Source of the DNA: Chthoniobacterales bacterium
GTDB taxonomy: Bacteria > Verrucomicrobiota > Verrucomicrobiia > Chthoniobacterales > UBA10450
Reading direction: 5' to 3'
Assembly (NCBI GenBank): GCA_025934755.1
Contig: JAICWQ010000010.1
Location: 1 to 37,553 of the forward strand
Length of the DNA: 37,553 nucleotides
Made by a program: the position numbers and the translations under genes. This document shows positions 8,201 to 37,553 of this stretch, one piece after another. The notes beneath the pieces are model-generated. The model did no database searches, was not told the origin of the DNA, and worked only from the letters and a program-made list of their open reading frames with translations. Every line of letters starts with the position of its first letter. Position 1 is the first letter of the stretch.

Positions 8201-8229
8201 CTGCCGTAATCGAACAATTGTCTGCAGTT

Positions 8230-8392: not shown

Positions 8393-8393
8393 G

Positions 8394-15383: not shown

Positions 15384-15439
15384 ATGGTTGTTCCAAACCG
15401 CTAACCATGAATGCGAAACTTTTATTGCCGGAGATCCAC

Positions 15440-17188: not shown

Positions 17189-17227
17189 GCGCTCGCCGGC
17201 AAATTAGAACGCATAATGGCGCCGGTA

Positions 17228-17421: not shown

Positions 17422-17576
17422 GACCTTCTCGCCGCGTAGGATTCGGTCCGTCGTCCCGTCTATTTTTCACGGACGAAAGCAGCTCACAGTAATCGCGACG
17501 ATTTCGATCCTTGATCGAATTATTACTGGCAGCGTTCCAAATTGTGACAAATAGTGGATTCTCATTTCTTCGCTTT

Positions 17577-18644: not shown

Positions 18645-18800
18645 TTGGCGTCGATAGTTGCAAAGGAGGGACGAAGGGAATGCCGATGCGATCAAGAGTA
18701 GGACGCTCGGAGATTGTCCGTCCAAAGGCGGGCCGCGGCGTTCACGCAGGGTTAACATGACTTCGAGGGACGAGTTTGGGCTCGGGCCAATCTCTTGAGA

Positions 18801-21314: not shown

Positions 21315-21439
21315 GCGAGCGCCTCGAAGAACAGTTGCAGGACGAGGAACCGCGTTGGTCCCGGGCCTACGGTTTTGTCCTCGCCTTCTTCGCGCTCGAG
21401 ATTTTGCTTCTTTATCTTTTTACCGTCCGGTTTTCGTGA
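21311..21439 (+). CDS. 42-residue single-helix membrane protein in the symporter operon
   Basis: A short open frame starts at ATG 21311, overlapping the PIG-L stop by 4 bp (ATGA), and ends at 21439, overlapping the symporter GTG start by 4 bp (GTGA). The product has a charged N-terminal half (MSERLEEQLQDEEPRWSRAY) and one hydrophobic helix (GFVLAFFALEILLLYLF), ending TVRFS. The double overlap argues strongly that it is translated. By analogy with small subunits encoded beside some sodium:solute symporters it may be an accessory subunit of the transporter. It has no recognisable family. Confidence 0.75.
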   Translation: MSERLEEQLQDEEPRWSRAYGFVLAFFALEILLLYLFTVRFS

Positions 21440-23118: not shown

Positions 23119-23119
23119 C

Positions 23120-23893
23120 GTGCCGACCCCGATAATTTGTTTTGGCCAGCAACCCTGCGGGATATTCCCCAAACGCTTTCTTTTCGCCAAGATAAAGACT
23201 GCGCGCCGGCTCCAGCGTGAGATCGGCGGAACGATTGTCTTTTTCTATCACGATAGCGATCACGACCCGCGCGAGACAAAGACGATTCTGCAAGATCGGC
23301 ACAGCGGACATAAAGCATCGGTCAATTTCGCATTCGAAAACAAAATCCAGAAACTCTACTCGCCCCTTTATCTGAAGCGGGTGGTCCCGGAATGGAAAAC
23401 AAAAATGGAACGGGTCTTGCCGGCGTATGTTGAGCGGAACCTCGTTGAGATTTTCAAAAGTATCGCGGGCAACACCGTCGCAGATTTCTGTCTGTCGATG
23501 TATGCCGGCATGGGTTTGATGGAAGGAATTAACGTCGCGCGTTCGAGCGAGGTCTCCTTTCGTTCAGCAGCTTGCGCGGTTGACGACTGTTTCGTCGATC
23601 TTCCATATGAAGGTGAGATTGTTCGGGCGCGCGCGCGCGATGGAAAATTCTGGCTGCACAAAGGTGGCGATAAGTTTATCGAAGTTCCGGCCCAAGATTA
23701 TGGATGCGAACAGGTCAGCCCAACCCGCGATACTCGATTTCGCTGGATGCAAAGCGTGATCCACTGCACCCATTATGTTAGCGGCGCGAGCGAGCAGGAT
23801 TACATCAATAAAGCGGACGGTCCCGGCGTGACTTTTGTTCGGCGCGAAGCAATCGACAATTCCGCCGACGCGTATATTGGCGGGAATGAATAA
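23120..23893 (+). CDS. Compact BshC-like protein (putative cysteine-adding enzyme)
   Basis: This 257-residue protein shares key motifs with BshC, the enzyme that attaches cysteine to glucosaminyl-malate in bacillithiol synthesis. The N-terminal FGQQPCGIFPKR parallels the GGQQAGLLTGP loop of BshC, FFYHDSDHDPRET parallels its VAGEDHDLDEIN motif, and HYVSGASEQDYI parallels the late FIAGPGEINYW. Canonical BshC is about 540 residues with a long C-terminal coiled coil; here that part is absent. The GTG start lies 1 bp after the symporter stop, and the end overlaps bshA by 8 bp. Context and motifs support a role in thiol synthesis, but activity of such a short form is untested. Confidence 0.7.
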   Translation: MPTPIICFGQQPCGIFPKRFLFAKIKTARRLQREIGGTIVFFYHDSDHDPRETKTILQDRHSGHKASVNFAFENKIQKLYSPLYLKRVVPEWKTKMERVLPAYVERNLVEIFKSIAGNTVADFCLSMYAGMGLMEGINVARSSEVSFRSAACAVDDCFVDLPYEGEIVRARARDGKFWLHKGGDKFIEVPAQDYGCEQVSPTRDTRFRWMQSVIHCTHYVSGASEQDYINKADGPGVTFVRREAIDNSADAYIGGNE

Positions 23894-25037
23894 CGAGCCT
23901 CTCCGAATTGGCATTGCCTGCTTTCCGCTCATCGGGGGGAGCGGAATTCTGGCGACCGCTTTGGGATCCGAACTCGCGCGACGCGGACATGAAGTGCACT
24001 TCTTCAGTTATGCGCGGCCGGTCCGGCTGGATACAGCGGAGGCACGACTTCATTTTCATCTTGTCGAACTTGCCCATCACCCGCTTTTTCCGTGCCCTGA
24101 TTACACGTTGCCTTTGGCAGTCAAGATGGCGGAGGTCGCCTCGACGGTTTCGCTCGATATCATTCACGCGCACTACGCGGTACCGAATGCGATGGCGGCG
24201 GTTCTGGCTGCGCAAATGTCGGGCGCTTCGCCAGGCATCGTTACTACATTGCACGGCACCGACACAAATTTGTTAGGCCAGGATCCGGCCTATCGCATGG
24301 CGATCGAATATGCGCTCGGCCAATCGGATGCGGTCACGGTCGTTTCCAAAAGCCTGGAGGAACAAACCCGCGAAACCCTTAACGTTTCGCGCGCTATCGA
24401 GGTCATTCCTAATTTCTTCACGCCTCGACCAGCTAGTCGCACTCGAGAAGAAGTTCGCACCGAGCTCGGCGCAGGGGACGGCGAATTCCTGATCCTGCAT
24501 ATGTCGAACATGCGATCCGGAAAAAGAATAGATCTTCTTTTGCAAACCTTAGCGGCGATGCGAACCCGAGATCGGACCCGATTGCTCATCCTGGCCGGCG
24601 AACCCATTCAGCCTTACGCGGAAATGATTGATCGCCTCGGTCTGAAGAAGCAGATCATCGTTCGGGAGAACGAACCGGCTGTTGAAGATTTTATCTCAGC
24701 CGCGGACGCCGGCCTTTACACGTCCGATTACGAAAGTTTCGGGCTTAGTATTCTGGAAACGCTCTACTTCGGAAAACCGATTGTTGCCTTTGATGTTGGA
24801 GGAATTCCGGAGGTAGTCGGCAACGCATATCCGCTTTATCCCTTTCCCAATGTGACCGCGCTCGCTTCCGCGATGGACAAGCTGGTTGAGTCTCCCGATT
24901 ACGCGCGAAGTCTCGGTGAGCAGGGGAGAAAGCACGTTGTCGAAAAATTCTCAGCGGACATCATCGTCGACCGCTACGAAACGCTCTACCGCCGGGTGAA
25001 AGACAAGAATCGCGAAGGGAAAGCACTCCAAAGGTAG
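23886..25037 (+). CDS. bshA: BshA-type glycosyltransferase (N-acetyl-glucosaminyl L-malate synthase)
   Basis: This 383-residue GT4 glycosyltransferase fits BshA, which joins UDP-GlcNAc and L-malate in the first step of bacillithiol synthesis. Diagnostic blocks are IGIACFPLIGGSGILAT at the N-terminus, HEVHFFSYARP, HAHYAVPNAMAA, TLHGTDTNLLGQDP and SDAVTVVSKSLEEQT. The GT4 donor site is seen as SDYESFGLSILE and GGIPEVVG. I chose the ATG at 23886, overlapping the BshC-like gene by 8 bp, because it begins exactly at the conserved N-terminus. The last codons and the stop lie inside a tRNA-3'-end-like repeat (25025-25049), so the gene end marks the border with the accessory region. Confidence 0.93.
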   Translation: MNNEPLRIGIACFPLIGGSGILATALGSELARRGHEVHFFSYARPVRLDTAEARLHFHLVELAHHPLFPCPDYTLPLAVKMAEVASTVSLDIIHAHYAVPNAMAAVLAAQMSGASPGIVTTLHGTDTNLLGQDPAYRMAIEYALGQSDAVTVVSKSLEEQTRETLNVSRAIEVIPNFFTPRPASRTREEVRTELGAGDGEFLILHMSNMRSGKRIDLLLQTLAAMRTRDRTRLLILAGEPIQPYAEMIDRLGLKKQIIVRENEPAVEDFISAADAGLYTSDYESFGLSILETLYFGKPIVAFDVGGIPEVVGNAYPLYPFPNVTALASAMDKLVESPDYARSLGEQGRKHVVEKFSADIIVDRYETLYRRVKDKNREGKALQR

Positions 25038-25049
25038 GATTCGGCGCTA
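25025..25049 (-). other. tRNA 3'-end fragment / putative attachment site, copy A
   Basis: Read on the minus strand the sequence is AGCGCCGAATCCTACC then TTTGGAGTG. CGAAT fits the rest of a T-loop, CCTAC the 3' strand of a T-stem, and TTTTGGA/CTCTGGA an acceptor strand followed by the G discriminator. The 5' two-thirds of a tRNA is absent, so this is not a functional tRNA gene. It matches copies at 26961, 33889 and 37531 in the same orientation. Here it overlaps the last codons and the stop of bshA. I interpret it as an attachment-site remnant of an element integrating in a tRNA gene, probably tRNA-Asn. Confidence 0.6.
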
Positions 25050-25152
25050 CTTTCCCCTGTATTTGACTGCATTTAAGCAGCTTACACCTGAGTAATCAAG
25101 CGAACTCAGCAACTGCTCGCGCGAACCATTTCAATGCGTTTTGCTGGCATTT
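25049..25152. repeat. Long repeat following tRNA-like core, copy 1
   Basis: About 100 bp starting TACTTTCCCCTGTATTT is shared with 33913-34026. Small hairpins are kept in both copies although bases differ: CTGC-N6-GCAG, and TTAC-N6-GTAA here against TTACAC-CT-GTGTAA there. On the minus strand both copies encode a similar peptide (here CQQNALKWFARAVAEFA), suggesting the decayed 3' end of a gene, perhaps the element's integrase. The gap between bshA and the GDCCVxC gene is mostly this repeat. Confidence 0.7.
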
Positions 25153-25245
25153 GGAAATCTGTAAAAACGAGCAATAAATTGCGTTCCGCAAAAGAAGCAG
25201 ATTCGACCAGTGAGTAAGACAAATGAAGAGCAAGGAACAGTGCGA

Positions 25246-25452
25246 ATGCCGATTTTGAGATCGACAATTATATGTCCGAAGTGCGGCCATCGCTCTGAAC
25301 AAGTAATGCCAACAAACGCCTGCGTTTTTTTCTTCGAATGTCCCTCCTGTAGAACAAGATTAAAACCGAAGGCCGGCGACTGCTGTGTATTCTGCAGTTA
25401 CGGATCGGTCCCGTGCCCCCCTATTCAGACCGGGTCGGCATGTTGCCCCTGA
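25246..25452 (+). CDS. GDCCVxC domain small zinc-ribbon-like protein
   Basis: This 68-residue protein has two paired cysteine knuckles (CPKC at 10-13, CPSC at 32-35). The signature GDCCVFCSYGSVPCPPIQ follows at about 44-61, then a CC near the end. This is the GDCCVxC family, some members of which are selenoproteins; here cysteine codons are used throughout. The ATG at 25246 is preferred because AAGGA at 25232-25236 lies 9 bp upstream and the protein then begins at the usual family position. A GTG at 25210 would extend it into repeat-derived sequence. The family often travels with heavy-metal or arsenic genes (from memory), which fits ArsR and ArsC downstream. The biochemical role is unknown. 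Confidence 0.85.
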   Translation: MPILRSTIICPKCGHRSEQVMPTNACVFFFECPSCRTRLKPKAGDCCVFCSYGSVPCPPIQTGSACCP

Positions 25453-25500
25453 GGCGACGAAAATGCGAAGAAATGCAACGCAGGTAGACTTCGTTCTCTA

Positions 25501-25986
25501 ATGGAGTCACCCCAACAAACTCTCCAAGCACCGCCGGTGGGTCGTGTACTGCGCATTGTGCTCGGTGTTGCTCTGGTGGTTTACGTGGCGCCGGTCTTCT
25601 TCCGAGTCCCGGTGCACCTTTCCGTTAGAGTATTGCTGCTAATGCTTGGACTCGTTTGCGTCTACACGCTAGTCCACATCGTCATATCGCAACGCATTTT
25701 TGGTTTTGGCCCTTGTCTTGGAGCCGTCGTCGCATCAGCGTTTCTCGTCGCGCTCTATGTTGGCGGCGCGACCGCATTGCCGATCATTGGCCGCGGGGCT
25801 GGTCAGCTGGAAGCAGTCACTTTCCTCGGTATTTCGCTGTTAATTGCAGGGGTGCGTGCCGCTCCCGGGTGTGAACTGATGGCAACTCCGGGTCTCTTCT
25901 TTGCTAAGCCCAGTGAGCTGCCCTGTATCATTTTCTCGCCTCTCGATAAGCTTGAACGCAAATGGCGAAGCAAGCGCGGTGTCTAA
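25501..25986 (+). CDS. Four-helix membrane protein of unknown function
   Basis: This 161-residue protein has four predicted membrane helices: VLRIVLGVALVVYVAPVFF, VLLLMLGLVCVYTLVHIVI, LGAVVASAFLVALYVGG and AVTFLGISLLIAGVRA. A soluble tail of about 40 residues carries CEL and PCII cysteines (LPCIIFSPLDKLERKWR). I do not recognise the family with confidence. It starts 48 bp after the GDCCVxC stop and precedes a DUF6428 gene, so it belongs to the same metal/arsenic-type cassette. The tail cysteines could bind metal, but no motif proves this. Confidence 0.75.
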   Translation: MESPQQTLQAPPVGRVLRIVLGVALVVYVAPVFFRVPVHLSVRVLLLMLGLVCVYTLVHIVISQRIFGFGPCLGAVVASAFLVALYVGGATALPIIGRGAGQLEAVTFLGISLLIAGVRAAPGCELMATPGLFFAKPSELPCIIFSPLDKLERKWRSKRGV

Positions 25987-26026
25987 TGCCGATCGACCAT
26001 ATTCCTAATCGAGAATATAGATCGGC

Positions 26027-26481
26027 ATGAAATTGCATGAACTGGTAGCCGCTTTGAACAAAGCTCCGCAAACCTTTCCGCGGTTTGTCTTGCCAGATGG
26101 TGATCATATTCCCGCGCACGCGCACGTCACTGAAGTTGGACACGTCGTCAAAAATTTTATTGATTGCGGCGGTGTAACAGGCAAGGAAGAAAAGGTCTTA
26201 CTGCAAACACATGTCGGAAACGACACGGAGCACGGGCTCCGATCCGATCGATTCTCAAAGATTCTGCAACTTGGTGAACGCGTTCTCCCAAACGATGAGC
26301 TGAACGTTGAAGTCGAACATGATTGCTGCGTTGTCGCTCAATACCCGATTTCAGAAATTAACGAGAAGGTAAGCATCTGGACATTATCCTGCAGCGCGGC
26401 TGGACGCAGTGTCGCGCACGTGAGCGCCGAGAGGCCGCTACAAACGAGGCATGCTGCGGAGCGACCGCAGCTTGTTGCTGA
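26027..26481 (+). pseudogene. DUF6428 family gene with a probable single-base frameshift
   Basis: Residues 1-about 122 follow DUF6428 proteins (VLPDGDHIPAHAHVTEVGHV, DCGG, LLQTHVGNDTEHGL). After EKVSIWTL near 26390 the reading frame loses similarity and runs on as an unnatural frame through arsR to 26770. One frame over, the DNA reads QRGWTQCRARERREAATN then ACCGATAACC and a stop at 26479-26481, which looks like the cysteine-rich end typical of the family. That stop overlaps the arsR ATG as TGATG. The intact gene would thus end exactly where arsR starts, and one base appears to be missing near 26385-26400. DUF6428 genes are commonly found beside arsR. Confidence 0.65.
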
Positions 26482-26855
26482 TGGCGAGCGATCTCATTCG
26501 AATTTGCCAATGCTTATGCGATCGGACACGACTCCGCATCCTGCATCTTCTTGCCAAGTCGCCGCTGTGCGTGTGCCATTTTCAGGAAATTCTTGGCGAG
26601 CTGCAGGTAAAAATTTCCAAGCACCTCGCTTATCTGCGCAAAAAGGGAATGGCCGTAGCGAGCCGCGATCAAAACTGGATGATTTATTTCCTGCCGAAGA
26701 AACGTTCGCGCGAGCTGGAGATAAACCTAACATGTCTTCAAGACTGCGCCCAGTCAGATGCGGCCTTTAAGCGAGATTTAACGAGCCTTGGGCGTTTGCG
26801 TGAAAACTGTTGTCAGCCGGCAGAAGTTTTTGCAAAGAGGAAAAGCGCACAATGA
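26481..26855 (+). CDS. arsR: ArsR-family metalloregulator
   Basis: This roughly 124-residue winged-helix repressor has CQCLCDRTRLRILHLLAK followed by the metal-sensing LCVC motif and the recognition helix VKISKHLAYLRKKGM. The CVC pair plus a nearby Cys is the As(III)/Sb(III) site of classical ArsR proteins, and a second CC (ENCCQPAE) lies at the C-terminus. I chose the ATG at 26481 because it overlaps the inferred DUF6428 stop (TGATG); an ATG at 26451 is in frame. It would repress the cassette and release on arsenite. The gene after it is a broken arsenate reductase. Confidence 0.88.
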   Translation: MASDLIRICQCLCDRTRLRILHLLAKSPLCVCHFQEILGELQVKISKHLAYLRKKGMAVASRDQNWMIYFLPKKRSRELEINLTCLQDCAQSDAAFKRDLTSLGRLRENCCQPAEVFAKRKSAQ

Positions 26856-26859
26856 GATT

Positions 26860-26937
26860 ATGAAGAAGAAGGTTCTTTTCATGTGCGTTCAGAACAGTGC
26901 GCGCAGTCAAATTGCGGCCGCAACGGCACAATCGTAA
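26860..26937 (+). pseudogene. arsC: Truncated arsenate reductase (ArsC, low-molecular-weight phosphatase type)
   Basis: An ATG 2 bp after the arsR stop opens a 25-codon frame: MKKKVLFMCVQNSARSQIAA then TAQS and stop. It matches the P-loop start of thioredoxin-type arsenate reductases (VLFLCVHNSARSQMAE), with the CX5R catalytic loop intact. Homology then ends; about 24 bp later comes tRNA-like core copy B. About 110 residues expected for the enzyme are missing, so the gene is a remnant, probably cut by the recombination that brought the core sequence. Confidence 0.8.
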
Positions 26938-26960
26938 ATGCCACAACAGTAGCTCGTTAG

Positions 26961-26985
26961 TGCTCCAGAGGTAGGATTCGGCGCT
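26961..26985 (-). other. tRNA 3'-end fragment / putative attachment site, copy B
   Basis: GCTCCAGAGGTAGGATTCG followed by GCGCT is the cleanest copy. Its complement gives CGAAT (T-loop), CCTAC (T-stem), CTCTGGA (acceptor) and G (discriminator). After GCGCT it does not continue into the long repeat seen after copies A and C. Copies A and B are direct repeats flanking the 1.9-kb arsenic-type cassette. Confidence 0.65.
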
Positions 26986-27045
26986 GTTTTGGAAGTCAAG
27001 TCACCTTGGAATCGATGCGAAGCTGTTCGCACTGACTCTCAGACT

Positions 27046-27825
27046 CTATATCCGATCAAACACAAGGATGCTCGGTTTGTTATGATTCATCACGCGTACG
27101 ATCATGGTCAAAGTTTTGAAGTCGGCAGAAAGATCGACCTGCCGAGTGTCCACGATTTTATCGGCTACTTTGTCTGTCAATTGCATGGCTAGTGCACTCA
27201 CGCGGTGCCCGGATGTTGTAGAGCCTTTTGGCAGGCCCGGGCCTGAACCCGGATAGTCCTTCCCATCGAATTTTATGTTTCTAGTTGTTTGCTGAGCAGG
27301 ATTGATAAAGGAAAGGCCATCCGCTTCATAAGGCTCGATCTGAAACTCGAAGACCGAGTTCACCTGCACGCTGTCGCTTTCCCACGTGCCGGCAAAACCT
27401 GCGGTTCCTGCAGTCCGGTCATAAACGTAGTTGAGGCTGGACTTTGTTCCGTTGGACGAGGTACTGGTAAAGTGGTCGGTAAGAGTTTTGCCATCTTGGG
27501 AAAGTTCCCAACCCGCCATGATGATCGCGATGCCGTCTTTCTTGCGGATGACCTTCCATTTGTTAGGCGTCTCAACGGTGACTGCTAATGTAGTCGCAAA
27601 ATCGGCCGGTTGATCGGTGCCGTCGGCCACGATCGTTTCAGGATGACCAGAGCCAAAGTCGAATGCGTACTTGTTTCCACTGACGCGTTCGACCTTCATT
27701 TCGTCAGTAAGTTTGCTGCGAGACGGGTTGAGCCTCCATTTGCCGACAAAGGGATTGTCCGCGGCGCGTGAAGGACCGATAACCAAACTAGCAACCAGCA
27801 AGAACCAACAAATACGATTTAACAT
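27046..27825 (-). CDS. Secreted protein of unknown function with duplicated beta-rich halves
   Basis: This 259-residue protein has a signal peptide (MLNRICWFLLVASLVIGPSR, cleavage after AA-D region). A strong Shine-Dalgarno-like AGGAGAAGGAG lies just upstream of the ATG at 27825. Two related segments are visible: NPFVGKWRLNPSRSKL at the mature N-terminus and GFAGTWESDSVQVN at mid-protein, each followed by beta strands. This suggests a duplicated lipocalin-like or DUF-type barrel. I do not recognise a named family. It lies in the second accessory segment, after tRNA-like copy B, and is transcribed leftward. Confidence 0.75.
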   Translation of the reverse strand: MLNRICWFLLVASLVIGPSRAADNPFVGKWRLNPSRSKLTDEMKVERVSGNKYAFDFGSGHPETIVADGTDQPADFATTLAVTVETPNKWKVIRKKDGIAIIMAGWELSQDGKTLTDHFTSTSSNGTKSSLNYVYDRTAGTAGFAGTWESDSVQVNSVFEFQIEPYEADGLSFINPAQQTTRNIKFDGKDYPGSGPGLPKGSTTSGHRVSALAMQLTDKVADKIVDTRQVDLSADFKTLTMIVRVMNHNKPSILVFDRI

Positions 27826-27967
27826 AAGTTCTCCTTCTCCTGATTTCGCGTTGCAAGGAGCGGGCCACTGGCCTATCCAAAGTTATAAGACTCTCAGAGA
27901 GAATGGTTACTGATTCTCCAACTTTCGAAGCGAACGTATTGATCGACCCAATTGTGGAACAACGCCG

Positions 27968-27981
27968 TCCCGAATTCGGGA
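27968..27981. repeat. Perfect 14-bp palindrome (TCCCGAATTCGGGA)
   Basis: A perfect dyad in the 335-bp gap between two minus-strand secreted-protein genes. A short T-rich stretch follows on the plus strand, but no plus-strand gene ends here, so it is unlikely to be a working terminator. It could be an operator-like site. The rest of the gap (27826-28160) shows only the hairpin at 28037-28062 and no gene. Confidence 0.45.
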
Positions 27982-28036
27982 TGTTTTCTTATGGGCCGCC
28001 AGCGTGTTAGTTATGAAAAGGCTCCCGCATCAGTCG

Positions 28037-28062
28037 CGGGGCTTCGGGGACGTTGAGCCCCG
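28037..28062. repeat. REP-like hairpin (CGGGGCT / AGCCCCG)
   Basis: A perfect 7-bp stem joins 28037-28043 to 28056-28062 around a 12-nt loop that is itself GC-rich. It lies about 100 bp beyond the 3' end of the minus-strand gene at 28161-28496. No T-tract follows on either strand. It resembles the other GC-rich dyads spread through this window. Confidence 0.5.
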
Positions 28063-28160
28063 GCCCTATTACAACCAGTCAAACGGCAGCGCGTCAAAAT
28101 AATGTCGGCTCCGCGGAACGCTATCGCGGCCTAGTCGATGATACTTTCTGGGTTACGAAT

Positions 28161-28496
28161 CTAGTTCTCCAGCGCTTCGACGGAAACTGCTCGATACGGT
28201 TCCTTGTTGCCGGTGTAAGATACTTCAACCGATTGGTTCAGGCAGTCCTTGATCGTTGAACGCTTGCCGCCAGGACCGGTAACTTTCGTCGAAGGGATAA
28301 TCCAGAAGCGGTGCGTTTCCCCACCGCCACTAACTGTTAATACCAAACCGATGCCTTCGGCGTCGGTGGTCTGTTTCACCTTGCTCGCGCTTTCAGCCAT
28401 GCCACGAAATGTTTGTCCGCCCTGCGCTAACACCGGTGAAATAGCGATCAACATGGTCGCAGCCGTCGCCGCCCCAACAAGAAATAATGTTTTCAT
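28161..28496 (-). CDS. Small exported protein of unknown function
   Basis: This 111-residue protein has a signal peptide (MKTLFLVGAATAATMLIAIS, cleavage after VLA-Q). The mature part is beta-rich (GIGLVLTVSGGGETHRFWII, SVEVSYTGNKEPYRAVSVE) and could be a small OB- or YgiW-like barrel; I do not assign a family. The ATG at 28496 is chosen because it begins the signal peptide; a longer frame to 28556 adds a polar tail. It lies 69 bp downstream of the large TPR-type gene on the same strand, so the two may be co-transcribed. Confidence 0.72.
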   Translation of the reverse strand: MKTLFLVGAATAATMLIAISPVLAQGGQTFRGMAESASKVKQTTDAEGIGLVLTVSGGGETHRFWIIPSTKVTGPGGKRSTIKDCLNQSVEVSYTGNKEPYRAVSVEALEN

Positions 28497-28565
28497 AAAA
28501 ATAGAATCGGTTTCCGACGAGCTAAAAGCGTGGCGTAAACTTGCTCTTTCGTCCAAATCTAAATT

Positions 28566-31500
28566 CTAACGATCTGCGGGCTTCGCCGCGATTGCGATGT
28601 CGTCTCCAACTTTCTTGCGCAATGTCCGCACTTCCTTGAGCGAGCTGATCATTCGCTGGGCCTGTTGCTGGACATTACTGAAGAGTTGCGACGCCTTGTA
28701 TTGGGAACTGGACGGCACGGAACTGGGCAGAGCATCGATCGTCGCTTTAAAGTCGGTGAAGATCGGCGCGTTTAGGGAAGAGTCGCTTTGCAAGAGACTC
28801 GTCCACGAATCGATCGCGCTCTCGCGGGCCTTCCGCACTTTATCATCCTTCGCGGCCACCGTCGGATTCGTTTCCAAAAAGTTCTCCGCTCTCTTGGCGC
28901 TCGCGATATACCGCTGCCATTTGACTTTGTCTTCTCCGGAAAGGGCTTGGGCGGTCGACAGCGTTTTGTCCCGAAAACTTTGCGCGGAAGCCGGATCAAG
29001 CTTGCCGGCGAACCGAGCAAGATCGGCGTACATCCGGGTCTGTCGAAAACCGGCCGGCATGCCCGCGACTGCGGCACCAGCCGAGGCCGGCAGACTTGGA
29101 GCGTTCGTCTTTGTCCCCACGGAAACGGCACCTCGGAGCGCGTCGATGAGAAGCCAGGCTCGGGCGACTGGATCTTTTAAATCCATGACACGCTGCAAAA
29201 CGTCAGAAACATCGCCGTGATCGATACCGTAGTTCATGGCGGCTCCCAGGCTGACCGCGCGGAAATCCTCGTCCGGCGCGAGATCGATATAGGTAAGCGC
29301 ATCATTGAAATGGTTCGCCTTCAAAGCGGAATCGACCGCCAGCGAAACCGATCTGGAACGCAGTTGCGGGTCGGTCATCGACTTCAGCGCGGTTTGCGTC
29401 GCTGCGGCGTCTTTTAACGCAGCTGAGGAAACGATGTCCGAAAGAGCGCGATCGTGCCAGTAAAGGTCGGTAATGGCTGACGCCAAGGTTATAGCTGCAG
29501 CAAAGTCGGGTTTCGCGGCAAGAGCGTTCGATAACTCCCAGCTGACAAACGGCTGAGCGTCGAAATTTGCGGGTGTACGCTTATCTTGTTTGGAAGCGGC
29601 AAGGAAAGTCGTGCGGGCGGCATTGACGTCGCCTATTTTCGCCTGCGCCACCGCGAGCGCTCGCAGCGCGTTCACCTTTTCACCGTTGCGTTTCAATTGC
29701 GCGATCAAACTGTGGGCGCCTTCCAAGTTTCCGGCGCGCACCTGGGCGGCCACAATCTCGTTCATCCCAGTGTTCGACGACTTCATCCATTTTGCAGCAA
29801 GATCGAAATGACCCGATTCAGACGCCGCGCGTATCAGTTGAGCTCGATCGGAGTCATAACGGCATCCTGCGAAAGCAGCATCAGCTCCGCTTAAGTCACC
29901 CTTAGTTATTTGAATCGCAGTAATTTCGGCGACCACACCGGGGCCATAAATCTCACCAAAACGTTTCATCTGTGCAGAGGCCCAATCGACTTCGCCAGCC
30001 TTGGCCATGTCTTTGATCAGCTCGCTGCCTACACTTTCCGATTGCGGCCAAAAATGTTCTGCATACTCCTTGGCCGCGATCAAATTGCCCGATTTGATGA
30101 AAGCGTGAACTACGTCACGAGTGGCGTTGCTGCGCGTCGACTGATTTGCGATTTTTTCCTGTGCAGCGCGGGCCGCGGCAAAATCGCCCCGCTCCCCAAA
30201 CGCTGAAGCTAACGCGCTCTGAGCGTCGTCGGCAGATTTGACGCTTAGTTTGGTCGCGACCGCTTGAGCAGCGGGAATATTTCCTGACGCGGCGAATTTG
30301 TTCAACGCGGCTTGCAGGAACGACTCGCGGGCCGGTCCAATGGCGTGTTCCAAACACTCACTTGAGTTCAGGTCGAGGTAACTCAACGCCGATGCCTCCA
30401 GATCCTTTGTTGTCAAGACCGTCATGAGCGCTTCGTCCTGCGCTTCCCGTTGTATGGAAAAAAGGCCAGCGTGATTCGCAGCCACCAGCGCCCATCGCAC
30501 ATGGTTGACACGCGTTTTGGGGTCCGGTACGGCCATCGCTTCCGCAAAAAAATCGGGTACACCATCGCGGGCCATCGCCGGTGTCTCAGCGAAACCGTAC
30601 AATTGCCACTCCAAATCCAGTCGCCTGATTGGTTCAGTAATCGCGGCGAGCAACGATCGCTTTTGCTGCCAGGCCTCGTTGGACGCTTTGTAGTCGCCGG
30701 CATCTGCTCGCTGATAGGCGATCGCCGCCTGAGCGTTCGCGCGGCCTTGTCCATCGGTTATGGCATTGGCGTTTCTCTCGGCGGTGACGAAATCTCCTTC
30801 ATTGGCAAAAGCGGTGGCCAGGCTCGTCTGCTTGGAAATCTTGTCGGTTCCCTCAGGCATTTCCGCCACAATTTTCGACGCGGTGATGAGATCAGCCTTC
30901 TTGATCGCATCGTCGTACCGTTTTGTGTTCTTGCGCGCCAGGTTTTGCTTGAGTGCCGTTGCTCGGCTGGTCGGGTCCGGAATCGTGTTCAGAATTTTTT
31001 CCGCCGCCGGAAACTCTTCCAGACCGGTTGCCATGCTCTGAATATCAGCCACGCTCAAGTCCTTCGAGAAGTCCTGAGCAAACTTTACCGCCGAGTTCAG
31101 ATCGGCCTCCTTGTGGGTCTGCGAGGCGAGACACGAAACGGCGATTCGATACGCTGAAATCAGGTAACTGCGCGCGATGTTGTCCGGTTTGGTCAATGCA
31201 AAACGCGCCGCCTCCGCAATCTTTCGGAGTGAAGCCTCTTCTTTTGCCCTGGCGGCATCGCTTGCGTGCCCCGAAAGCGCCAGCGCCAGTCTGAAGCGCG
31301 ACAATTCATTCTCCTGTGAATTTTCCGGTTCCTGAAAGGCGGCTGTGGAAACAGCGATCGCCTGTTGTCGCCAATGTGCCGACGCGGCGATATCTTTCCG
31401 CGCGGAGGCCAGGTCCGACAGACTAGTGTCGATGACAAATTTTTCCTTGGCCCGCTTGGCTGACGGAAGAAGCGCCTCCGTCTTTCGGGCGAGCGACAAA

Positions 31501-32660
31501 AGTCGTTCCGGATTGTCTTTGATGCCCGCTTGATAAGTTAAGGAGAAATAAGCGTTGGCGCGTTCCGCGACGCCGGGAATTGCGTCTGCCATTGCTTCCG
31601 CGCCATTTAAATCACCAGCGTTCGCTTTCTGAGTGCGAAGATCGTTAAGTTTACTTGTCACGTACTCGACTAACGAATCGTGATAGGCGAATCCTTTTTC
31701 GTTGAACAACATCGGCACGATTGCTTTGGCCCCCCGCCAGTCGTTCAGTTCAAGGTGGACCTGCGCCAAAGTGTGAAGCGCACTATTCCGCGACGATTTG
31801 GCGTTTTGATCTTTCACCGGCATTGCCTTGGTCAGCTCATCCGCGCGCGCCAGGTGCTGCAGAGCGCGATCCGGGTCGCCCGCCTTAAATTCCGCCTTCG
31901 CGAGTTCACACAAGGCAAACCGCGGAAATTGATCTCCGATTATTTGCGCGAGGGTGGTGCGAGCATCAGTGACCAGGCCTTGCTTGGCCTGTTCGTTCAG
32001 CACATTGTAGAACGCGCTTGAACGACCGTTCGCTTCAGCCATTTCTCCGGCCAATCGTTTCGCTTCGTCAAAATGACTCTCCTCGGCCAGTGCGGTAACA
32101 ATGTTACTAATGAGGCTCACCGAGCTGCTATCCCTCGCCAGTTGTTGCGCTCCCGCCATGGCGGCGTCCACATCGCCGGCGTGCGCTTGCAGGACGGCAA
32201 TCGATTGCTGCGCGCTGCGCTGGTCGTAACTTGCCGCCTCGTACTTGTTGGCAAGCGACTTGAGCATGTCGATAATCAATCCGGTGCTCGCCTCCGTCTT
32301 TAATTCGAGATTAGCGATCTGACTTCGAATTGCGGCGGTCTTCTCCGTCTGCGGCTCCGCCAGCAAGTAGGCCTCGAAAAGAGCAACTGCGCGCAACTCG
32401 CGCCCCGGAATCTGCATCTCAGCCAAAGCCAGATTGTAAAGCGCAACGGGGGAATGGGGCGCCGCCTTGCGGGCCTCCTCAAAGTAACGAATCGCCACCT
32501 TCCATTCCTTTTGACCGGCGGCCGCCACACCTTTGCTGACTGCTTCCTTCGCTGCGGGAGAAAGTTCGTCCGCAGGCTCTTGCGCATGCAGTCGGATCGA
32601 GAATGAAAGCCCAACAAAAAGACAAAAATAGACGCGCAGTGCGCGTCGCACGGATCGCAT
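28566..32660 (-). CDS. Large exported TPR/alpha-solenoid protein
   Basis: This roughly 1364-residue protein has a signal peptide (MRSVRRALRVYFCLFVGLSF, cleavage near LHA-Q). The first domain is a clear TPR (SKGVAAAGQKEWKVAIRYFE, APHSPVALYNLALAE). The rest is a long run of about 35-residue helical hairpins with recurrent A..A.IA....R and AGD...A patterns (AYQRADAGDYKASNEAWQQ; AFGERGDFAAARAAQEKIA), so a very long alpha-solenoid is expected. The ATG at 32660 is chosen because it starts the signal peptide and leaves 10 bp to the upstream gene. It probably acts as a periplasmic or surface scaffold together with the product of 32671-33783. No enzymatic motif is seen. Confidence 0.85.
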   Translation of the reverse strand: MRSVRRALRVYFCLFVGLSFSIRLHAQEPADELSPAAKEAVSKGVAAAGQKEWKVAIRYFEEARKAAPHSPVALYNLALAEMQIPGRELRAVALFEAYLLAEPQTEKTAAIRSQIANLELKTEASTGLIIDMLKSLANKYEAASYDQRSAQQSIAVLQAHAGDVDAAMAGAQQLARDSSSVSLISNIVTALAEESHFDEAKRLAGEMAEANGRSSAFYNVLNEQAKQGLVTDARTTLAQIIGDQFPRFALCELAKAEFKAGDPDRALQHLARADELTKAMPVKDQNAKSSRNSALHTLAQVHLELNDWRGAKAIVPMLFNEKGFAYHDSLVEYVTSKLNDLRTQKANAGDLNGAEAMADAIPGVAERANAYFSLTYQAGIKDNPERLLSLARKTEALLPSAKRAKEKFVIDTSLSDLASARKDIAASAHWRQQAIAVSTAAFQEPENSQENELSRFRLALALSGHASDAARAKEEASLRKIAEAARFALTKPDNIARSYLISAYRIAVSCLASQTHKEADLNSAVKFAQDFSKDLSVADIQSMATGLEEFPAAEKILNTIPDPTSRATALKQNLARKNTKRYDDAIKKADLITASKIVAEMPEGTDKISKQTSLATAFANEGDFVTAERNANAITDGQGRANAQAAIAYQRADAGDYKASNEAWQQKRSLLAAITEPIRRLDLEWQLYGFAETPAMARDGVPDFFAEAMAVPDPKTRVNHVRWALVAANHAGLFSIQREAQDEALMTVLTTKDLEASALSYLDLNSSECLEHAIGPARESFLQAALNKFAASGNIPAAQAVATKLSVKSADDAQSALASAFGERGDFAAARAAQEKIANQSTRSNATRDVVHAFIKSGNLIAAKEYAEHFWPQSESVGSELIKDMAKAGEVDWASAQMKRFGEIYGPGVVAEITAIQITKGDLSGADAAFAGCRYDSDRAQLIRAASESGHFDLAAKWMKSSNTGMNEIVAAQVRAGNLEGAHSLIAQLKRNGEKVNALRALAVAQAKIGDVNAARTTFLAASKQDKRTPANFDAQPFVSWELSNALAAKPDFAAAITLASAITDLYWHDRALSDIVSSAALKDAAATQTALKSMTDPQLRSRSVSLAVDSALKANHFNDALTYIDLAPDEDFRAVSLGAAMNYGIDHGDVSDVLQRVMDLKDPVARAWLLIDALRGAVSVGTKTNAPSLPASAGAAVAGMPAGFRQTRMYADLARFAGKLDPASAQSFRDKTLSTAQALSGEDKVKWQRYIASAKRAENFLETNPTVAAKDDKVRKARESAIDSWTSLLQSDSSLNAPIFTDFKATIDALPSSVPSSSQYKASQLFSNVQQQAQRMISSLKEVRTLRKKVGDDIAIAAKPADR

Positions 32661-32670
32661 GACGGGTTGT

Positions 32671-33783
32671 CTAGTTATGCGGTCCGCCGGATTTCTCCAG
32701 AGGCAAATTGTTGCCTGGTGATGCGCCCGCGGCCGGTTGAGTTTTGGATGCCGCGGAATTTGACTGATTCGCGTAAGCAACAGCATCATCCTGAATTTGC
32801 TTGAGCATCAAATCGTCCACCCCTGAACTTTTGAAGATCGCTTCCGTCTGTTCCTGGGTTTCCTTTTCCTGGTCCAACGGATTGACGAGCTTTGGTTGAT
32901 TGGCCGGACGTTGCTCGCCGGGCCATGCGCTCTTCGGTTTTGATGGCGGAGGGTTTAGCAATTCGATGTCCTGGTTTTGCGGCAGCTGCACATTGGGGCC
33001 GGGAGGCGGTGGAGCGTTTTTACGAAAGCCAGCGGGCGGAGCGGATGAGGTGTTCTTCATTGCCATCGGATCAACGCTTGTTTTAGTGGTGCCGCGCAGA
33101 TCGACAACGTTCGGATCCTGCCAGGGCGCAGATTGCGGTTGCGGAACGCTGCTATTTGTTTGGTCGCCGGTTGTTTTTGATGGAGCCGTGTTTTCGGCCG
33201 GCATGAATTCAAGGGTCGCGGCACCTGCTCCAGCGGCCGGAGTGGAACCAGTATTATGACCGTCGAAGTCTGGCATGTTTGCGGTCAACTGCTGAAGTGT
33301 CGCGCTCATTCGGGAAGCCATATTGGTGTCTTCCTGCTTGCGCGTTTCCTGCCACTGCTGTTGCTGCAGTTGTTCCGTCGCCTTGGCGAGATTGCTTTGA
33401 ATTACTTTGTCGCCGGGAGACTTGGCGAGAGCCTGTCGAAATTGTTCGACTGCCGCTCCCCATTCATGCCTTTTCCAAAAGGAAAGACCGGCGTCATTCG
33501 CGGCGTGAGCGGCCCGAAGCGTTGCCTGGCGCTGCGCTTCCCGCTCCGCCGCTTGTTGTGCTGCCTGCTGCGCAGCTTGTTGGGCCGCGATTTGTTCCGC
33601 CGTCGGACCGGTATAGACGGGAGCGCGCGGTTGAGCTGAACCCTGGTTGCCCAAAACCATATCGCGCTGCCAACCTGCTCGTGCGGGAACCGTAGACACC
33701 ACCAACAGAAATACGGATGCCAGCCCAAACAAAATGGTCTCGAACGATCTGAACACCGGAATCGAAACAGGGCGTCTCATCAC
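32671..33783 (-). CDS. Exported TPR protein with Q/A-rich coiled segment
   Basis: This 370-residue protein carries a signal peptide or N-terminal anchor (PVFRSFETILFGLASVFLLV, then PARAGW). A Q/A repeat follows (IAAQQAAQQAAQQAAERE), then a short TPR unit (AGLSFWKRHEWGAAVEQFRQ, SPGDKVIQSNLAKAT). The C-terminal 200 residues are proline-rich and disordered-looking (SAPPAGFRKNAPPPPGPNVQ). It ends 10 bp before the large solenoid gene, so the two form an operon. Likely a periplasmic adaptor; no known family assigned. A second Met one codon later (33780) is an equivalent start. Confidence 0.8.
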   Translation of the reverse strand: MMRRPVSIPVFRSFETILFGLASVFLLVVSTVPARAGWQRDMVLGNQGSAQPRAPVYTGPTAEQIAAQQAAQQAAQQAAEREAQRQATLRAAHAANDAGLSFWKRHEWGAAVEQFRQALAKSPGDKVIQSNLAKATEQLQQQQWQETRKQEDTNMASRMSATLQQLTANMPDFDGHNTGSTPAAGAGAATLEFMPAENTAPSKTTGDQTNSSVPQPQSAPWQDPNVVDLRGTTKTSVDPMAMKNTSSAPPAGFRKNAPPPPGPNVQLPQNQDIELLNPPPSKPKSAWPGEQRPANQPKLVNPLDQEKETQEQTEAIFKSSGVDDLMLKQIQDDAVAYANQSNSAASKTQPAAGASPGNNLPLEKSGGPHN

Positions 33784-33888
33784 AGGCGAATTGTAGCAGA
33801 TGAAACGCCTTTCACGAATTTAAGTCTCACTAATGCCGTCGAGTACGACCAGGGCATCTGTGAATAACCGGTTGCTGGCATCATTTAG

Positions 33889-33913
33889 CGCTCCAGAGGC
33901 AGGATTGGGCGCT
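33889..33913 (-). other. tRNA 3'-end fragment / putative attachment site, copy C
   Basis: GCTCCAGAGGCAGGATTGG followed by GCGCT differs from copy B by two bases. The changes (T-stem and T-loop positions) are what decay of a non-functional fragment would give. It is followed by the long repeat shared with copy A. It lies in the 417-bp gene-free gap between a minus-strand TPR gene and the plus-strand cyclase gene. Confidence 0.6.
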
Positions 33914-34026
33914 ACTTTCCCCTGTATTTTGCTGCACTCAAGCAGCTTACACCTGTGTAATCAAGCAACTCGCCCACTACTCGCGCGAACTCTTTCACTG
34001 CGGTTTGCTGGCAATTTTGCTGGCAG
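33911..34026. repeat. Long repeat following tRNA-like core, copy 2
   Basis: Homologous over about 100 bp to 25049-25152. It starts TACTTTCCCCTGTATTT and contains hairpins CTGC-ACTCAA-GCAG and TTACAC-CT-GTGTAA. On the minus strand it encodes a peptide CQQNCQQTAVKEFARVVGE that parallels the one in copy 1 and runs to a stop next to the tRNA-like core, as expected for the end of an integrase gene beside its attachment site. From 34027 to 34200 I see only a GTGGGTTCGAGCCC stretch and the cyclase ribosome-binding site. Confidence 0.7.
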
Positions 34027-34200
34027 CGAACCCGAAAAGCAAAGTCAACGCAGTGGGTTCGAGCCCAACGGGCTCCGAGGTTGCGAGTCATCGGTTAGCC
34101 ATTCAATGCGCTTCAGCATGGCGCCTCCAAACGGCCTGCCACGGATTGCTGCGCCAGAACAGCCTCGTTAAATTACAAGTTTGGGGATAGGAAGAATCTC

Positions 34201-37200
34201 ATGATCGAGCGTTCGGACGTGAAGTTTGAGATCGGGCATGTGCTGTTCATCGACATTGTCGGTTACTCGAAATTGCTGATTAACCAGCAGAGCGAGCAGA
34301 TTCAAAAGTTAAAAGAGATCGTTCGCGGAACCGAGCAAGTCCGTTTAGCGGAAGCGGAAGGCAAAATGCTCCGATTGCCGACGGGCGATGGCGGCGCGCT
34401 CGTTTTCCGCAATAATTCGGAAGCGCCAGTCTTATGCGCAATGGAGATTGCCAAGGCGCTAAAGAATCACCCCGAACTTCGAGTGCGCATGGGAATTCAC
34501 AGCGGCCCCGTGAATGAAGTTGTCGATCTTAACGGGCAATCGAATATCGCCGGCGCCGGCGTCAATATCGCCCAGCGCGTGATGGATTGCGGCGACGCTG
34601 GTCACATTCTTCTCTCAAAACGTGTTGCCGACGATCTTGAACATTATTCGCAGTGGCGTTCGTGTTTGCACGACCTTGGTGAATGCGAAGTCAAACACGG
34701 CGCCCGCGTTTCGCTGGTTAATCTCCATACCGACGAGCTCGGCAACTCGGAAGTGCCGGAGAAGCTGCATCGGGGCGCAGCTGTTCGAGCTGACGACGGT
34801 TTTTGGGTAGCGGTGTTGCCAATTAAATATAGCGGCAGCAACTCCGATCTCATCGCCTTGGCCGACGCGCTGACCGAGGAAATCGTCACCGGCCTGTCCC
34901 GTTTCTCTTATCTCAGGGTCATCTCGCGCAGTTCGACTTCTCGTTATGCCAAAGAGTCCGTTGACGTGCGGTCCGCCGGAAAAGAATTGGGCGCGCGCTA
35001 TGTCATGGAAGGCAGCTTACGGCAGGCGGGAACCAAACTGCGTCTCGCAGTCCAACTGGTGGACGCAATCTCCGGCGCTCATCTTTGGGCCGAGAACTAT
35101 GAACGCACCTTCTCTCCCGAATCATTCTTTGCCTTACAAGACGATCTCGTCCCGCGAATCGTCTCAACCGTCGCCGACAGGTATGGCATTCTCTCGTATA
35201 ATATGAGCGACCTGGTCCGGAGCAAAGCCCCGGATCAGTTGACGCCGTATGAGGCGCTTCTGCGTGGTATCGGTTATGGCTACCGAGTAACTCCCGAAGA
35301 ACACGCTGTGGCTCGGACATGCATGGAGCGGGGCGTCCAACAGGCGCCGAGTTATGCCGATGGTTGGGCCATGTTGTCGCTGCTGTATACAGACGAGTAC
35401 GGCTTCGGATTCAACGAGCAACCGGATTCCCTTGGGCGCGCCCTCCAAGCCGCCCGGCGAGCGATTGATGCCGCGCCTTCAAATTCGTTGTCGCAACTTG
35501 CCCTCGCGAAAACCTTATTTTTTCGCAAGGAATTTCCAGCGTTTCGAACCGCGGCCGAGCATGCCGTCTCAATCAACTCAATGGACGGGGCCCAGCTGGC
35601 CGCCTTGGGCAGCATGCTCGCATACTCTGGCGACTGGGAGCGCGGCTGTGCGCTGATTGAACGATCCATGCAGTTCAATCCGGGCCACCCGGCATGGTAT
35701 CGGTTTCCTTTTTTCTACAACGCCTACCGCCAAGGCGACTACGTCGGAGCGCTCAATGCTGCGCTCAAGATCAATCTCCCCGGATTTTTCGCTGTCTACG
35801 AGGCACTGGCTGCGGTTTACGGCCAGCTTGGTCAGCGGGACGCGGCGAGCCAATCCCTCAACGAGATGCTGAAGTTAGTCCCCAATTTCGGAGAGATTGG
35901 CCGAGCCCTGAAGTCCAGGTGGTTCGATCCCGAACTGGTCGAACACTTGCTCGATGGTCTTCGCAAGGCGGGTTTGGAGATTCGTGAGGACGGATCGTCC
36001 GACTCGTTAGGACGCGCCCGGACGGCATCGGAAAAACGAGCGCCTGACACTGCGCCAGCCAAATCCGTTGCGGTGCTGCCGTTCGTGAGCCTGAGCGCAG
36101 ACAAAAACGACGAATATTTGAGCGATGGGACGACCGAGGAACTGATTAACGCGCTGGCCAAGGTGCCAGGACTGCGCGTGCCGGGACGGACATCCTGTTT
36201 CGCTTTCAAGGGCAAAACCGAATCGGACATTTTCCGGAAAGTCGGCGATCACCTGCATGTCGATACAGTATTAGAAGGAAGCGTTCGCAAAGCTGGCGAT
36301 AAACTGCGCGTCACCGCTCAACTCATCAATGTGAGCGACGGCTATCATTTGTGGTCGAATGACTACGACGGTGATGTAAATGACATCTTCAATTTTCAGA
36401 GCAACGTGGCCCAACGCGTTGTCGAAGCCCTGCAAATCAAGTTAGGCGTCGAAGAAAAACGCACCTTAACGAAAAAGCCGACCGAGAATCCGGAGGCTCA
36501 CCGCCTCTACTTGCTGGGACGCTATGAATTTGGCAAGTACGGCGAAGCCGGCTGGACCAGCTCGATCCGCTACTACGAGCAGGCGCTGAAGCTCGATCCT
36601 AACTATGCTTTGGCTTATTGCGGATTAGCCGACACCTACGCCTATATGGGAGGAGTCGTGATGCCGAGCAAAGAAGCGGTAGTTAAAGAGAAGGAGTTTG
36701 CGCAAAAAGCGCTGGAGCTCGACCCGGAACTGCCGGAAGCGCACCTTTCCCTTGCTTGCGCTCTTGGCGGTGCTTTTGATTGGCAGAATGCCCAGATTGA
36801 ATTCGATCGCGCCATCGAACTAAATCCTAATTTGGCATGGGCATATGAAATATATGCCTGGTTCCTGGGCGGGCTTGGTCGATTAGACGAGGCGATTGCC
36901 AAAGACAAAAAAGCAATCGAACTCGATCCGCTGAATTCGTTCTTTCAAGCTGCTCTGGCTTACTTTCTGTATCACGCACGTCGATATGACGATGCCATTG
37001 CCCAAATCAAAAAGACGCTGGAACTGGATCCCAATTCAACCATGGCCCGTCATTTGTTAGGCTGCTGCTTCTTGTGGAAAGGCGACACAGCCGGCGCGAT
37101 CGCCGAATTTCAACGAAGTAAAATAGTCGTGACCGGTGCGTGGTATCAAGGGCTGCTCGGCTACGCCTATGCCATTTCTGGAGATCAACCGAAAGCGGAG

Positions 37201-37431
37201 CAAGTCCTGCGCGAACTCGAAGAAATGGCAAAACGGCAATACGTCAGTTCGACAGCGTTCGCTGACATCCATCTAGGACTTCGCGAAAAGGAGAAAGCTT
37301 TGGATTGGCTGGAAAAATCTTATCAGCACCAAGAGAGCGCTTGCTGGTATCTAAAGGTTGACCCGATTTACGATAGTGTGCGCAATGAGCCGCGCTTTCA
37401 GGCTATTGTGAAGAAGGTCGGACTCGAATAG
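34201..37431 (+). CDS. Class III adenylate/guanylate cyclase with two TolB/FlgO-like and TPR modules
   Basis: This 1076-residue protein starts at an ATG with AGGAAG 6 bp upstream. Residues 10-175 form a class III cyclase domain: metal Asp D18 in FIDIVGYS and D63 in PTGDGG, transition-state N122 and R126 in VNIAQR. The base-recognition lysine found near GDG in classical enzymes appears to be replaced (LRLPTGDG). A TolB-N/FlgO-like domain (FWVAVLPIKYSG...) spans about 201-305, then TPR-like helices to about 590. A second such domain (SVAVLPFVSLSADKNDEYLS) spans 621-745, then clear TPRs (YALAYCGLADTYAYMGG, NPNLAWAYEIYAWFLGGLGR) to the end. No membrane helix is seen. It likely links ligand or protein sensing to cyclic nucleotide output. 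Complete gene. Confidence 0.9.
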   Translation: MIERSDVKFEIGHVLFIDIVGYSKLLINQQSEQIQKLKEIVRGTEQVRLAEAEGKMLRLPTGDGGALVFRNNSEAPVLCAMEIAKALKNHPELRVRMGIHSGPVNEVVDLNGQSNIAGAGVNIAQRVMDCGDAGHILLSKRVADDLEHYSQWRSCLHDLGECEVKHGARVSLVNLHTDELGNSEVPEKLHRGAAVRADDGFWVAVLPIKYSGSNSDLIALADALTEEIVTGLSRFSYLRVISRSSTSRYAKESVDVRSAGKELGARYVMEGSLRQAGTKLRLAVQLVDAISGAHLWAENYERTFSPESFFALQDDLVPRIVSTVADRYGILSYNMSDLVRSKAPDQLTPYEALLRGIGYGYRVTPEEHAVARTCMERGVQQAPSYADGWAMLSLLYTDEYGFGFNEQPDSLGRALQAARRAIDAAPSNSLSQLALAKTLFFRKEFPAFRTAAEHAVSINSMDGAQLAALGSMLAYSGDWERGCALIERSMQFNPGHPAWYRFPFFYNAYRQGDYVGALNAALKINLPGFFAVYEALAAVYGQLGQRDAASQSLNEMLKLVPNFGEIGRALKSRWFDPELVEHLLDGLRKAGLEIREDGSSDSLGRARTASEKRAPDTAPAKSVAVLPFVSLSADKNDEYLSDGTTEELINALAKVPGLRVPGRTSCFAFKGKTESDIFRKVGDHLHVDTVLEGSVRKAGDKLRVTAQLINVSDGYHLWSNDYDGDVNDIFNFQSNVAQRVVEALQIKLGVEEKRTLTKKPTENPEAHRLYLLGRYEFGKYGEAGWTSSIRYYEQALKLDPNYALAYCGLADTYAYMGGVVMPSKEAVVKEKEFAQKALELDPELPEAHLSLACALGGAFDWQNAQIEFDRAIELNPNLAWAYEIYAWFLGGLGRLDEAIAKDKKAIELDPLNSFFQAALAYFLYHARRYDDAIAQIKKTLELDPNSTMARHLLGCCFLWKGDTAGAIAEFQRSKIVVTGAWYQGLLGYAYAISGDQPKAEQVLRELEEMAKRQYVSSTAFADIHLGLREKEKALDWLEKSYQHQESACWYLKVDPIYDSVRNEPRFQAIVKKVGLE

Positions 37432-37530
37432 CACATGCAACCGAAACCTTCAAAAGCTACGGGCCGACGTAACAATCTAGACGCTGTCAGCAAGCGTTTG
37501 ATTGCAAGTTCCTAGAAATTAGTCACTTAC

Positions 37531-37543
37531 CGCTCCAGAGGTA
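37531..37543 (-). other. Partial tRNA 3'-end fragment / putative attachment site, copy D
   Basis: CGCTCCAGAGGTA matches the first 13 bases of the core, after which the sequence changes to AATAATATAC and the window ends. The preceding bases (AGTCACTTAC) resemble the TTAG context before copies B and C. It closes the segment that carries the cyclase gene. The remaining 37432-37530 shows no gene. Confidence 0.45.
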
Positions 37544-37553
37544 ATAATATACT

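Follow-up and report, generated by a model that had tools for sequence, protein, structure and literature searches.

The right half of the window (the whole 37,553-nucleotide stretch of DNA analyzed here) is best explained, with a probability of about 0.92, as a tandem accretion array at a tRNA-Asn(GTT) gene that arose by serial site-specific integration. The tRNA-Asn of this soil bacterium seems to have been a repeated docking site for mobile DNA, with a copy of the tRNA tail marking each segment. On this view, a variable stretch of such genomes records one insertion after another at a single tRNA gene. At least three, and probably four, integration events (E0, E1, E2 and E3) appear to have taken place between the DUF885 gene and the tRNA. 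The order in the window is DUF885, E0, core, E1, core, E2, core, E3, tRNA, and the features are as follows:

15407..17188, + strand: DUF885 gene (Pfam PF05960), left chromosomal anchor of the array; matched by contigs C230 and C355 of the same-genus relative G005 at 79-86%
17427..17510, + strand: candidate attachment relic, a decayed core with left end, where synteny with G005 is broken
17511..25037, + strand: segment E0, with genes for DUF2911, PIG-L, an SSF transporter, an unknown protein and a glycosyltransferase (Pfam)
25025..25043, + strand: core copy 1, a tRNA-Asn 3' end with 2 mismatches, at which homology to G005 stops
25025..26961, + strand: segment E1, with DUF6428 and ArsR-family genes (Pfam PF20001, PF01022)
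25026..25152, + strand: left end of E1 (nhmmer, 124 bits, itself in the training set), with TGCTGGCA at 25142
26860..26937, + strand: 25-codon gene start, truncated beside core 2; by eye its CVQNSARSQ motif is what we take to be arsC-like
26962..26980, + strand: core copy 2, exact (0 mismatches)
26962..33889: segment E2, with ORFs all on the - strand and a left end reduced to ~29 bp
27046-27825, 28161-28556, 28566-32789 (TPR, 1407 aa) and 32671-33783, - strand: ORFs of E2
33890..33908, + strand: core copy 3, 2 mismatches
33890..34027, + strand: left end of E3 (nhmmer, 130 bits, itself in the training set), with two TGCTGGCA at offsets +116 and +128
33890..37531, + strand: segment E3, a single 1076-aa nucleotide-cyclase/TPR gene at 34201-37431 (Pfam PF00211 and TPR families)
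37532..37543, + strand: first 12 bp of a tRNA-Asn 3' end, the gene continuing on contig C239

The core, GCTCCAGAGGTAGGATTCG, matched the window at three places with up to three mismatches, all on the + strand, and gave no match in 100 shuffles of the window. By eye, its reverse complement is the 3' end of tRNA-Asn, from the T-loop to the discriminator plus the next C. Each of the three cores is followed by GCGCT, and two of them by the left end. The original prediction had a 19-20 bp core recurring four times in one orientation; the orientation is indeed uniform and 19 bp are present at 25025, 26962 and 33890, but the copy at 37532 is only 12 bp long (GCTCCAGAGGTA) and is followed by 10 unrelated bases up to the contig end.

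The window is the entire contig C173 of its own genome, G000, a draft in 258 contigs, and no tRNA gene was found inside it by ARAGORN. Elsewhere in G000, with up to three mismatches, we found an exact core at C239:184 and one three-mismatch match on C123; the latter has no tRNA near it, and we take it to be unrelated to the array. The exact copy lies within an intact tRNA-Asn(gtt) on the - strand (C239:184-256), next to a tRNA-Met, as expected of a core predicted to be a minus-strand, tRNA-Asn-like sequence. Because C239:1-195 overlaps window 37349-37543, with 189 of 196 aligned columns identical, including the first 103 bp, the 12-bp core at 37532 is the start of the C239 tRNA-Asn, and the intact tRNA thus sits at the predicted place to the right of the window. 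The join between C173 and C239 depends on this 196-column overlap with its 7 differences, and all genomes compared are drafts. At the contig end (window 37452-37553), the 7 differing columns fall in the last ~90 aligned bases before the unrelated terminal ones; these differences from C239 represent either strain variation or assembly error. The tRNA 3' end is therefore directly repeated at both boundaries with the tRNA intact, the right boundary of E3 lying on C239.

Comparison with G005 places a boundary at core 1. Window 20647-25046 corresponds to positions 1-4400 of G005 locus L072 at 84% identity, and the match stops at core 1, after which the cargo differs; E0 (window 17518-25046) is 83% identical to G005:C355 5877-13399. 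The E2 block (window 28581-33826) is also present in G005, at 77%, to the left of E0, such that the order there is DUF885 (with its start on another contig), E2 block, E0, core; i.e., E2-E0 versus E0-E1-E2 in the window. On one reading, E2 was excised and then re-inserted. Since no core was found in G005 between E2 and E0 or to the left of E2, the change of order could have another cause, the alternative being independent acquisition or some other rearrangement. A fixed segment order in relatives, with no boundary at the cores, had been named as evidence that would speak against serial integration, and G005 has neither. It had also been proposed to compare relatives for precise loss of single segments; precise absence of E1 or E3 alone was not found in a close strain.

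The position at 17427, at the DUF885/E0 junction, is a weak candidate for a fifth, decayed attachment relic. It was the third-highest distinct place among 3742 scoring windows compared with 14 left ends (score 40.3; the best core-less place scored 32.1), and its alignment score was reached by one of 2000 shuffles. It was missed by nhmmer at E≤10, so that the relic rests on the left-end scoring, the shuffle result and the synteny break. A REP-like repeat lies nearby (window 17219-17398), with inverted arms at 17248-17274 and 17372-17398; positions 17219-17300 are copied on six other G000 contigs at 89-96%. Further left, window 5480-13972 carries genes with purine-type Pfam names (amidohydrolase, DUF6986, a xanthine-dehydrogenase-type fusion and adenine deaminase). 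The description of the cargo in E1 as arsenic-type was borne out by the Pfam matches to ArsR (HTH_5) and DUF6428 and, by eye, by the arsC-like start of 25 codons.

The cores at 25025 and 33890 are followed on their right by a common sequence of ~140 bp, the left end; the earlier proposal that two copies share a ~100-bp element end holds as 80 + 50 bp, at 89% and 82% identity. From relatives, the ends of the element family could be defined as ~140 bp on the left and ~130 bp on the right; the TGCTGGCA repeats tend to lie at certain distances from the core. The left-end sequence was found in 16 of the 83 genomes of the family (E≤0.001), with most matches joined to a tRNA-Asn-like core, and the other 67, all drafts, gave no match to it. 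When fetched loci were scanned with nhmmer profiles built from 14 left and 7 right ends, 27 left ends scored above 40 bits, 21 of them with an intact core at the start, as did 12 right ends, nine of which led into tRNA-Asn sequence, two into a core plus left end and one into a bare core; these counts include the training sequences and cover fetched loci mostly picked for a core or an end. Junctions of right end, core and left end were found in G099 and G025. In an order-wide pattern search, 42 of 213 genomes matched with up to three mismatches, and a reversed-pattern control also gave scattered matches. All 19 matches with zero or one mismatch, in 16 genomes, were in the family of the window; we take several of the two- to three-mismatch matches in that family to be real, and the remaining order-wide matches to be due to chance. 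Viral contigs gave no match to the core plus left-end pattern.

At right junctions, TGCTGGCA lay at -82 in 8 of the 17 examined and at -70/-71 in 5. At left junctions, TGCTGGCA or TGCTGGCG lay at +106 to +129 in 17 of the 22 examined, and at +127 to +151 in two (G054 and G166, from other families). TGCTGGC has a background frequency of 0.035 per 176 bp, counted on one strand. These repeats are probably integrase arm sites. The repeats at -82/-70 were found at none of the junctions at 25025, 26962, 33890 and C239:184; among these four, the only right-side TGCTGGCA is at 33890, at position -17. Junctions in G077, G066 and G099:C312 likewise lacked right-end repeats. The attachment sites of the window thus comprise cores on both sides and two good left ends, with right-end repeats missing at all four junctions. 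CCA is encoded at none of the four, unlike in most relatives (by a crude two-base test); in sampled G000 loci, 17 of 38 tRNA entries, some counted twice, have CCA (by a crude string test). Because the left end at 26962 is reduced to ~29 bp, the right-end repeats are missing and CCA is absent at the junctions, the window elements, which also have no integrase, are remnants.

In keeping with this, none of the eight right-third ORFs scanned contained an integrase, relaxase or transfer domain (Pfam, E≤0.01); integrases are found within the elements of relatives. The G080 element, ~6 kb long and flanked by a core with left end on one side and an intact tRNA-Asn on the other, encodes a tyrosine integrase (PF00589, 7.2e-11; PHROG integrase, 2.6e-20), together with a weak excisionase-like HTH (phrog_66, 8.6e-6), a Rep-like protein (PF23343, 1.5e-7) and DUF2806. 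This integrase matched 5 of the 83 family genomes at E≤1e-20, including G080 itself: three matches were near full length (one with a stop) and two were fragments. G000 has no homologue at that threshold, its four other PF00589 matches being on contigs other than C173 and C239, and the integrase that had been expected next to the intact tRNA is not there, none adjoining the tRNA-Asn of G000. A class-wide search with the G080 integrase matched 66 of 384 genomes at E≤1e-25. A tRNA-Asn lay within the 1.5-kb flank in seven of the eight best integrase loci, and when larger stretches were taken at seven loci, six had tRNA-Asn and two of those six a second core, some stretches being short. One of these elements, in G054, spans 11.1 kb between cores and encodes a MobA/MobL relaxase (MobA_MobL, 3.1e-31), restriction-enzyme domains and an integrase, 68% identical to the query, that adjoins tRNA-Asn; another, in G166, spans 7.9 kb between cores and carries TrbI, a HORMA-family match and an integrase. 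Only G054 combines its own integrase with a relaxase, as an IME would, G080 having the Rep-like PF23343 instead.

A solved XerC-like recombinase can be aligned with the tRNA-Asn integrase (L189:8264-9352; 1.2e-6). In this alignment, the place of the usual arginine (which we take to be that of box I) is occupied by a non-arginine residue; by eye, the G025 homologue has the same reading there. No relatives of the integrase were found among viral contigs, and matches outside genomes were limited to one phage and four plasmid records, all with less than 30% identity. We also considered the left end as the C-terminus of an integrase, since the reversed reading gives a conserved '...QQTAVKELARVVAEFA*' peptide; this was dropped because the integrases found end otherwise and sit at the opposite end of the element.

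In the mechanism we propose, a tyrosine integrase of the family found beside tRNA-Asn would recombine the attP of a circular element with the tRNA gene, the target being its 3' end from the T-loop to the discriminator plus the next C. Each integration would rebuild the tRNA with the 3' end that the element brings along, and the old 3' end, plus everything behind it, would be displaced away from the tRNA gene. We infer the action of the family integrase on this core as well as the order in which the integrations took place. Serial integration at one tRNA, as originally predicted, is supported by the core in the G000 tRNA-Asn, the boundary at core 1, the reordering in G005 and the integrases beside tRNA-Asn in relatives, i.e., in elements of G080, G054 and G166 that are bounded by a core and tRNA-Asn. 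Counting against it are the lack of a cognate integrase in G000 at E≤1e-20, the missing right-end repeats, the ~29-bp left end of E2, the non-arginine at box I, and a second core at only two of six other-family integrase loci with tRNA-Asn, some stretches being short.

Some elements in relatives consist of cargo only. In G017 and G077, an asparagine-synthase gene and a second gene are bounded on one side by a core with its left end and on the other by a core that adjoins tRNA-Asn sequence, and no integrase was seen among the element ORFs. The Pfam assignment of asparagine synthase was run on the G099 copy; the second gene in G077 has a PMT_2 match below the family cut-off. The alignment between G017 and G077 (86%) begins at the core, the left flanks being different; G017 has a full right end and G077 a weak one (26 bits). 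Both cargo genes recur in G099, where the second is in two frames; a right end accompanies them, but next to them no left end was found. Third-position identity at conserved residues of asparagine synthase was 0.80 for G017-G077, 0.90 for G017-G099 and 0.80 for G077-G099, and the corresponding values for two neighboring genes were 0.56, 0.54 and 0.57, and 0.49, 0.53 and 0.53. Since G017 is in a different genus from G077 and G099, the between-genus values for the synthase (0.80/0.90) exceed those for its neighbors (0.49-0.56), which supports horizontal transfer of the integrase-less segment between genera. In G092, a cargo-only element with both ends carries cyclase/TPR genes; other cargo includes TIR-Sel1 (G080), FHA (G097), Sel1 (G066) and a CusCBA-like set (G005). 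Up to the core, the empty tRNA-Met/tRNA-Asn site of G009 is similar to the left flanks of G077, G081 and G088, although only weakly so in the last stretch before the core. Nucleotide-cyclase/TPR-type genes lie near a left end or core in window E3 (34201-37431), G005, G092, G097, G025 (the second gene) and G083 (cargo loci L072 16635-19049, L191, L193, L194 and L207); however, between 6 and 20 PF00211 matches were counted in each of six genomes checked.

At seven loci in relatives, two tRNA-Asn copies 308-344 bp apart enclose a GIY-YIG-like ORF; that of L223 looks partial. The units are:

L069: 2527-2853
L073: 10675-11037
L215: 8852-9205
L217: 577-932
L219: 13763-14109
L222: 1454-1809
L223: 5344-5693

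Of the two copies, the outer one is a tRNA-Asn fragment or pseudogene; in five of the seven units a TCCCGACT..GTYGGGA-type hairpin replaces its anticodon stem. Pfam confirmed GIY-YIG in all four proteins tested, and the whole looks like a tRNA-duplicating, homing-type unit. The right end in G017 runs into the outer, broken tRNA copy of such a unit.

Could the cores of the window have been made in another way? Such GIY-YIG units do duplicate tRNA-Asn 3' halves in several relatives, but it is most improbable that one of them duplicated the tRNA ends here: their copies keep 'AACCTACGA...' beyond the core and are 308-344 bp apart, whereas the three cores of the window lead into GCGCT and two into the left end. 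None of the eight right-third ORFs scanned matched GIY-YIG, and neither a GIY-YIG gene nor an extended tRNA copy was seen at the cores of the window. It is also very unlikely that the segments are chromosomal genes that never moved, with the cores arising as duplications of the tRNA tail by illegitimate recombination. E0 and E2 are indeed common to G005 at 77-83%, near the 79-86% of the flanking DUF885/SIR2 region; this explanation would, however, leave aside the second conserved ~140-bp end attached to cores in many genomes, the breakpoint at the core and the change of order in G005, and the integrases adjoining the tRNA in other elements.

More plausible, though still less likely than not, is a reading in which the segments would be tRNA-ended cassettes: small integrase-less elements with conserved ends, mobilized in trans by integrase-bearing relatives, exchanged from genus to genus and rearranged within arrays, rather in the manner of integron cassettes. 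In line with this are the cargo-only elements of G017 and G092, which have both ends, the asparagine-synthase and PMT_2-like cargo of G017, G077 and G099 with its third-position identities, the G017/G077 alignment that starts at the core, and the different placement of E2 in G000 and G005. However, decay of integrase elements may account for the cargo-only forms, as may movement in cis with a neighbor; the G077 right end is weak, no left end accompanies the G099 cargo, and the arrays are short. A cassette system had been raised as an alternative at the outset. Integrase-less elements with conserved ends, and one cargo apparently moved between genera, agree with it in part, mobilization in trans being hypothetical. 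A little more doubtful still is the wider proposal that the tRNA-Asn 3' end of the family might be the common docking site for a pool of integrase-free cassettes, with core, left end, right end and TGCTGGCA arm sites as standard ends, moved in trans by the integrase of rarer autonomous elements. If this is true, nucleotide cyclase, TIR, Sel1, surface-sugar and metal-resistance genes would be exchanged between genera and reordered.

Returning to serial accretion, the ends, the target and the likely integrase of a Verrucomicrobia element family can now be defined from sequence, and the family offers a direct test of whether integrase-free cargo travels by a borrowed integrase. In related bacteria, such segments appear to have been exchanged between genera and placed in different order. 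We found no published description of this element family in the literature searched. Accretion at a tRNA is nevertheless a known kind of system, and the case in the window is of the same kind. In Dehalococcoides, as described in PMC3146451, ssrA islands stand in tandem on one side of the RNA gene, and 20-bp repeats of the gene's 3' end mark the boundaries of each. An integration module is lacking in 15 of the islands, and the authors invoke cis-mobilizable elements and accretion. Both systems have tandem segments bounded by RNA 3'-end repeats, some without an integration module, but the target there is tmRNA and the enzyme a serine recombinase, whereas here they are tRNA-Asn and a tyrosine recombinase. 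CIMEs, according to PMC5704250, have lost their integration and transfer genes, have kept their att sites and are stacked beside other elements. The elements in the right third of the window are likewise stacked with these genes gone; their right ends look eroded, and whereas CIMEs are described as decayed ICEs or IMEs, one integrase-less cargo here has apparently moved between genera. In 'Ca. Methylopumilus', recurring 20-bp tRNA-Lys repeats mark an additive genomic island; it involves another tRNA and another phylum, and its element ends and integrase family are not given in the available text (PMC10872708). Tycheposons, elements of 4-200 kb first found in marine Prochlorococcus and proposed to be phage satellites (cited in PMC10872708 and PMC11389934), are similar by description in being tRNA-associated and having a tyrosine recombinase and cargo. 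Finally, integron cassette arrays are built with IntI and attC sites; the boundaries here are tRNA-Asn 3' ends.
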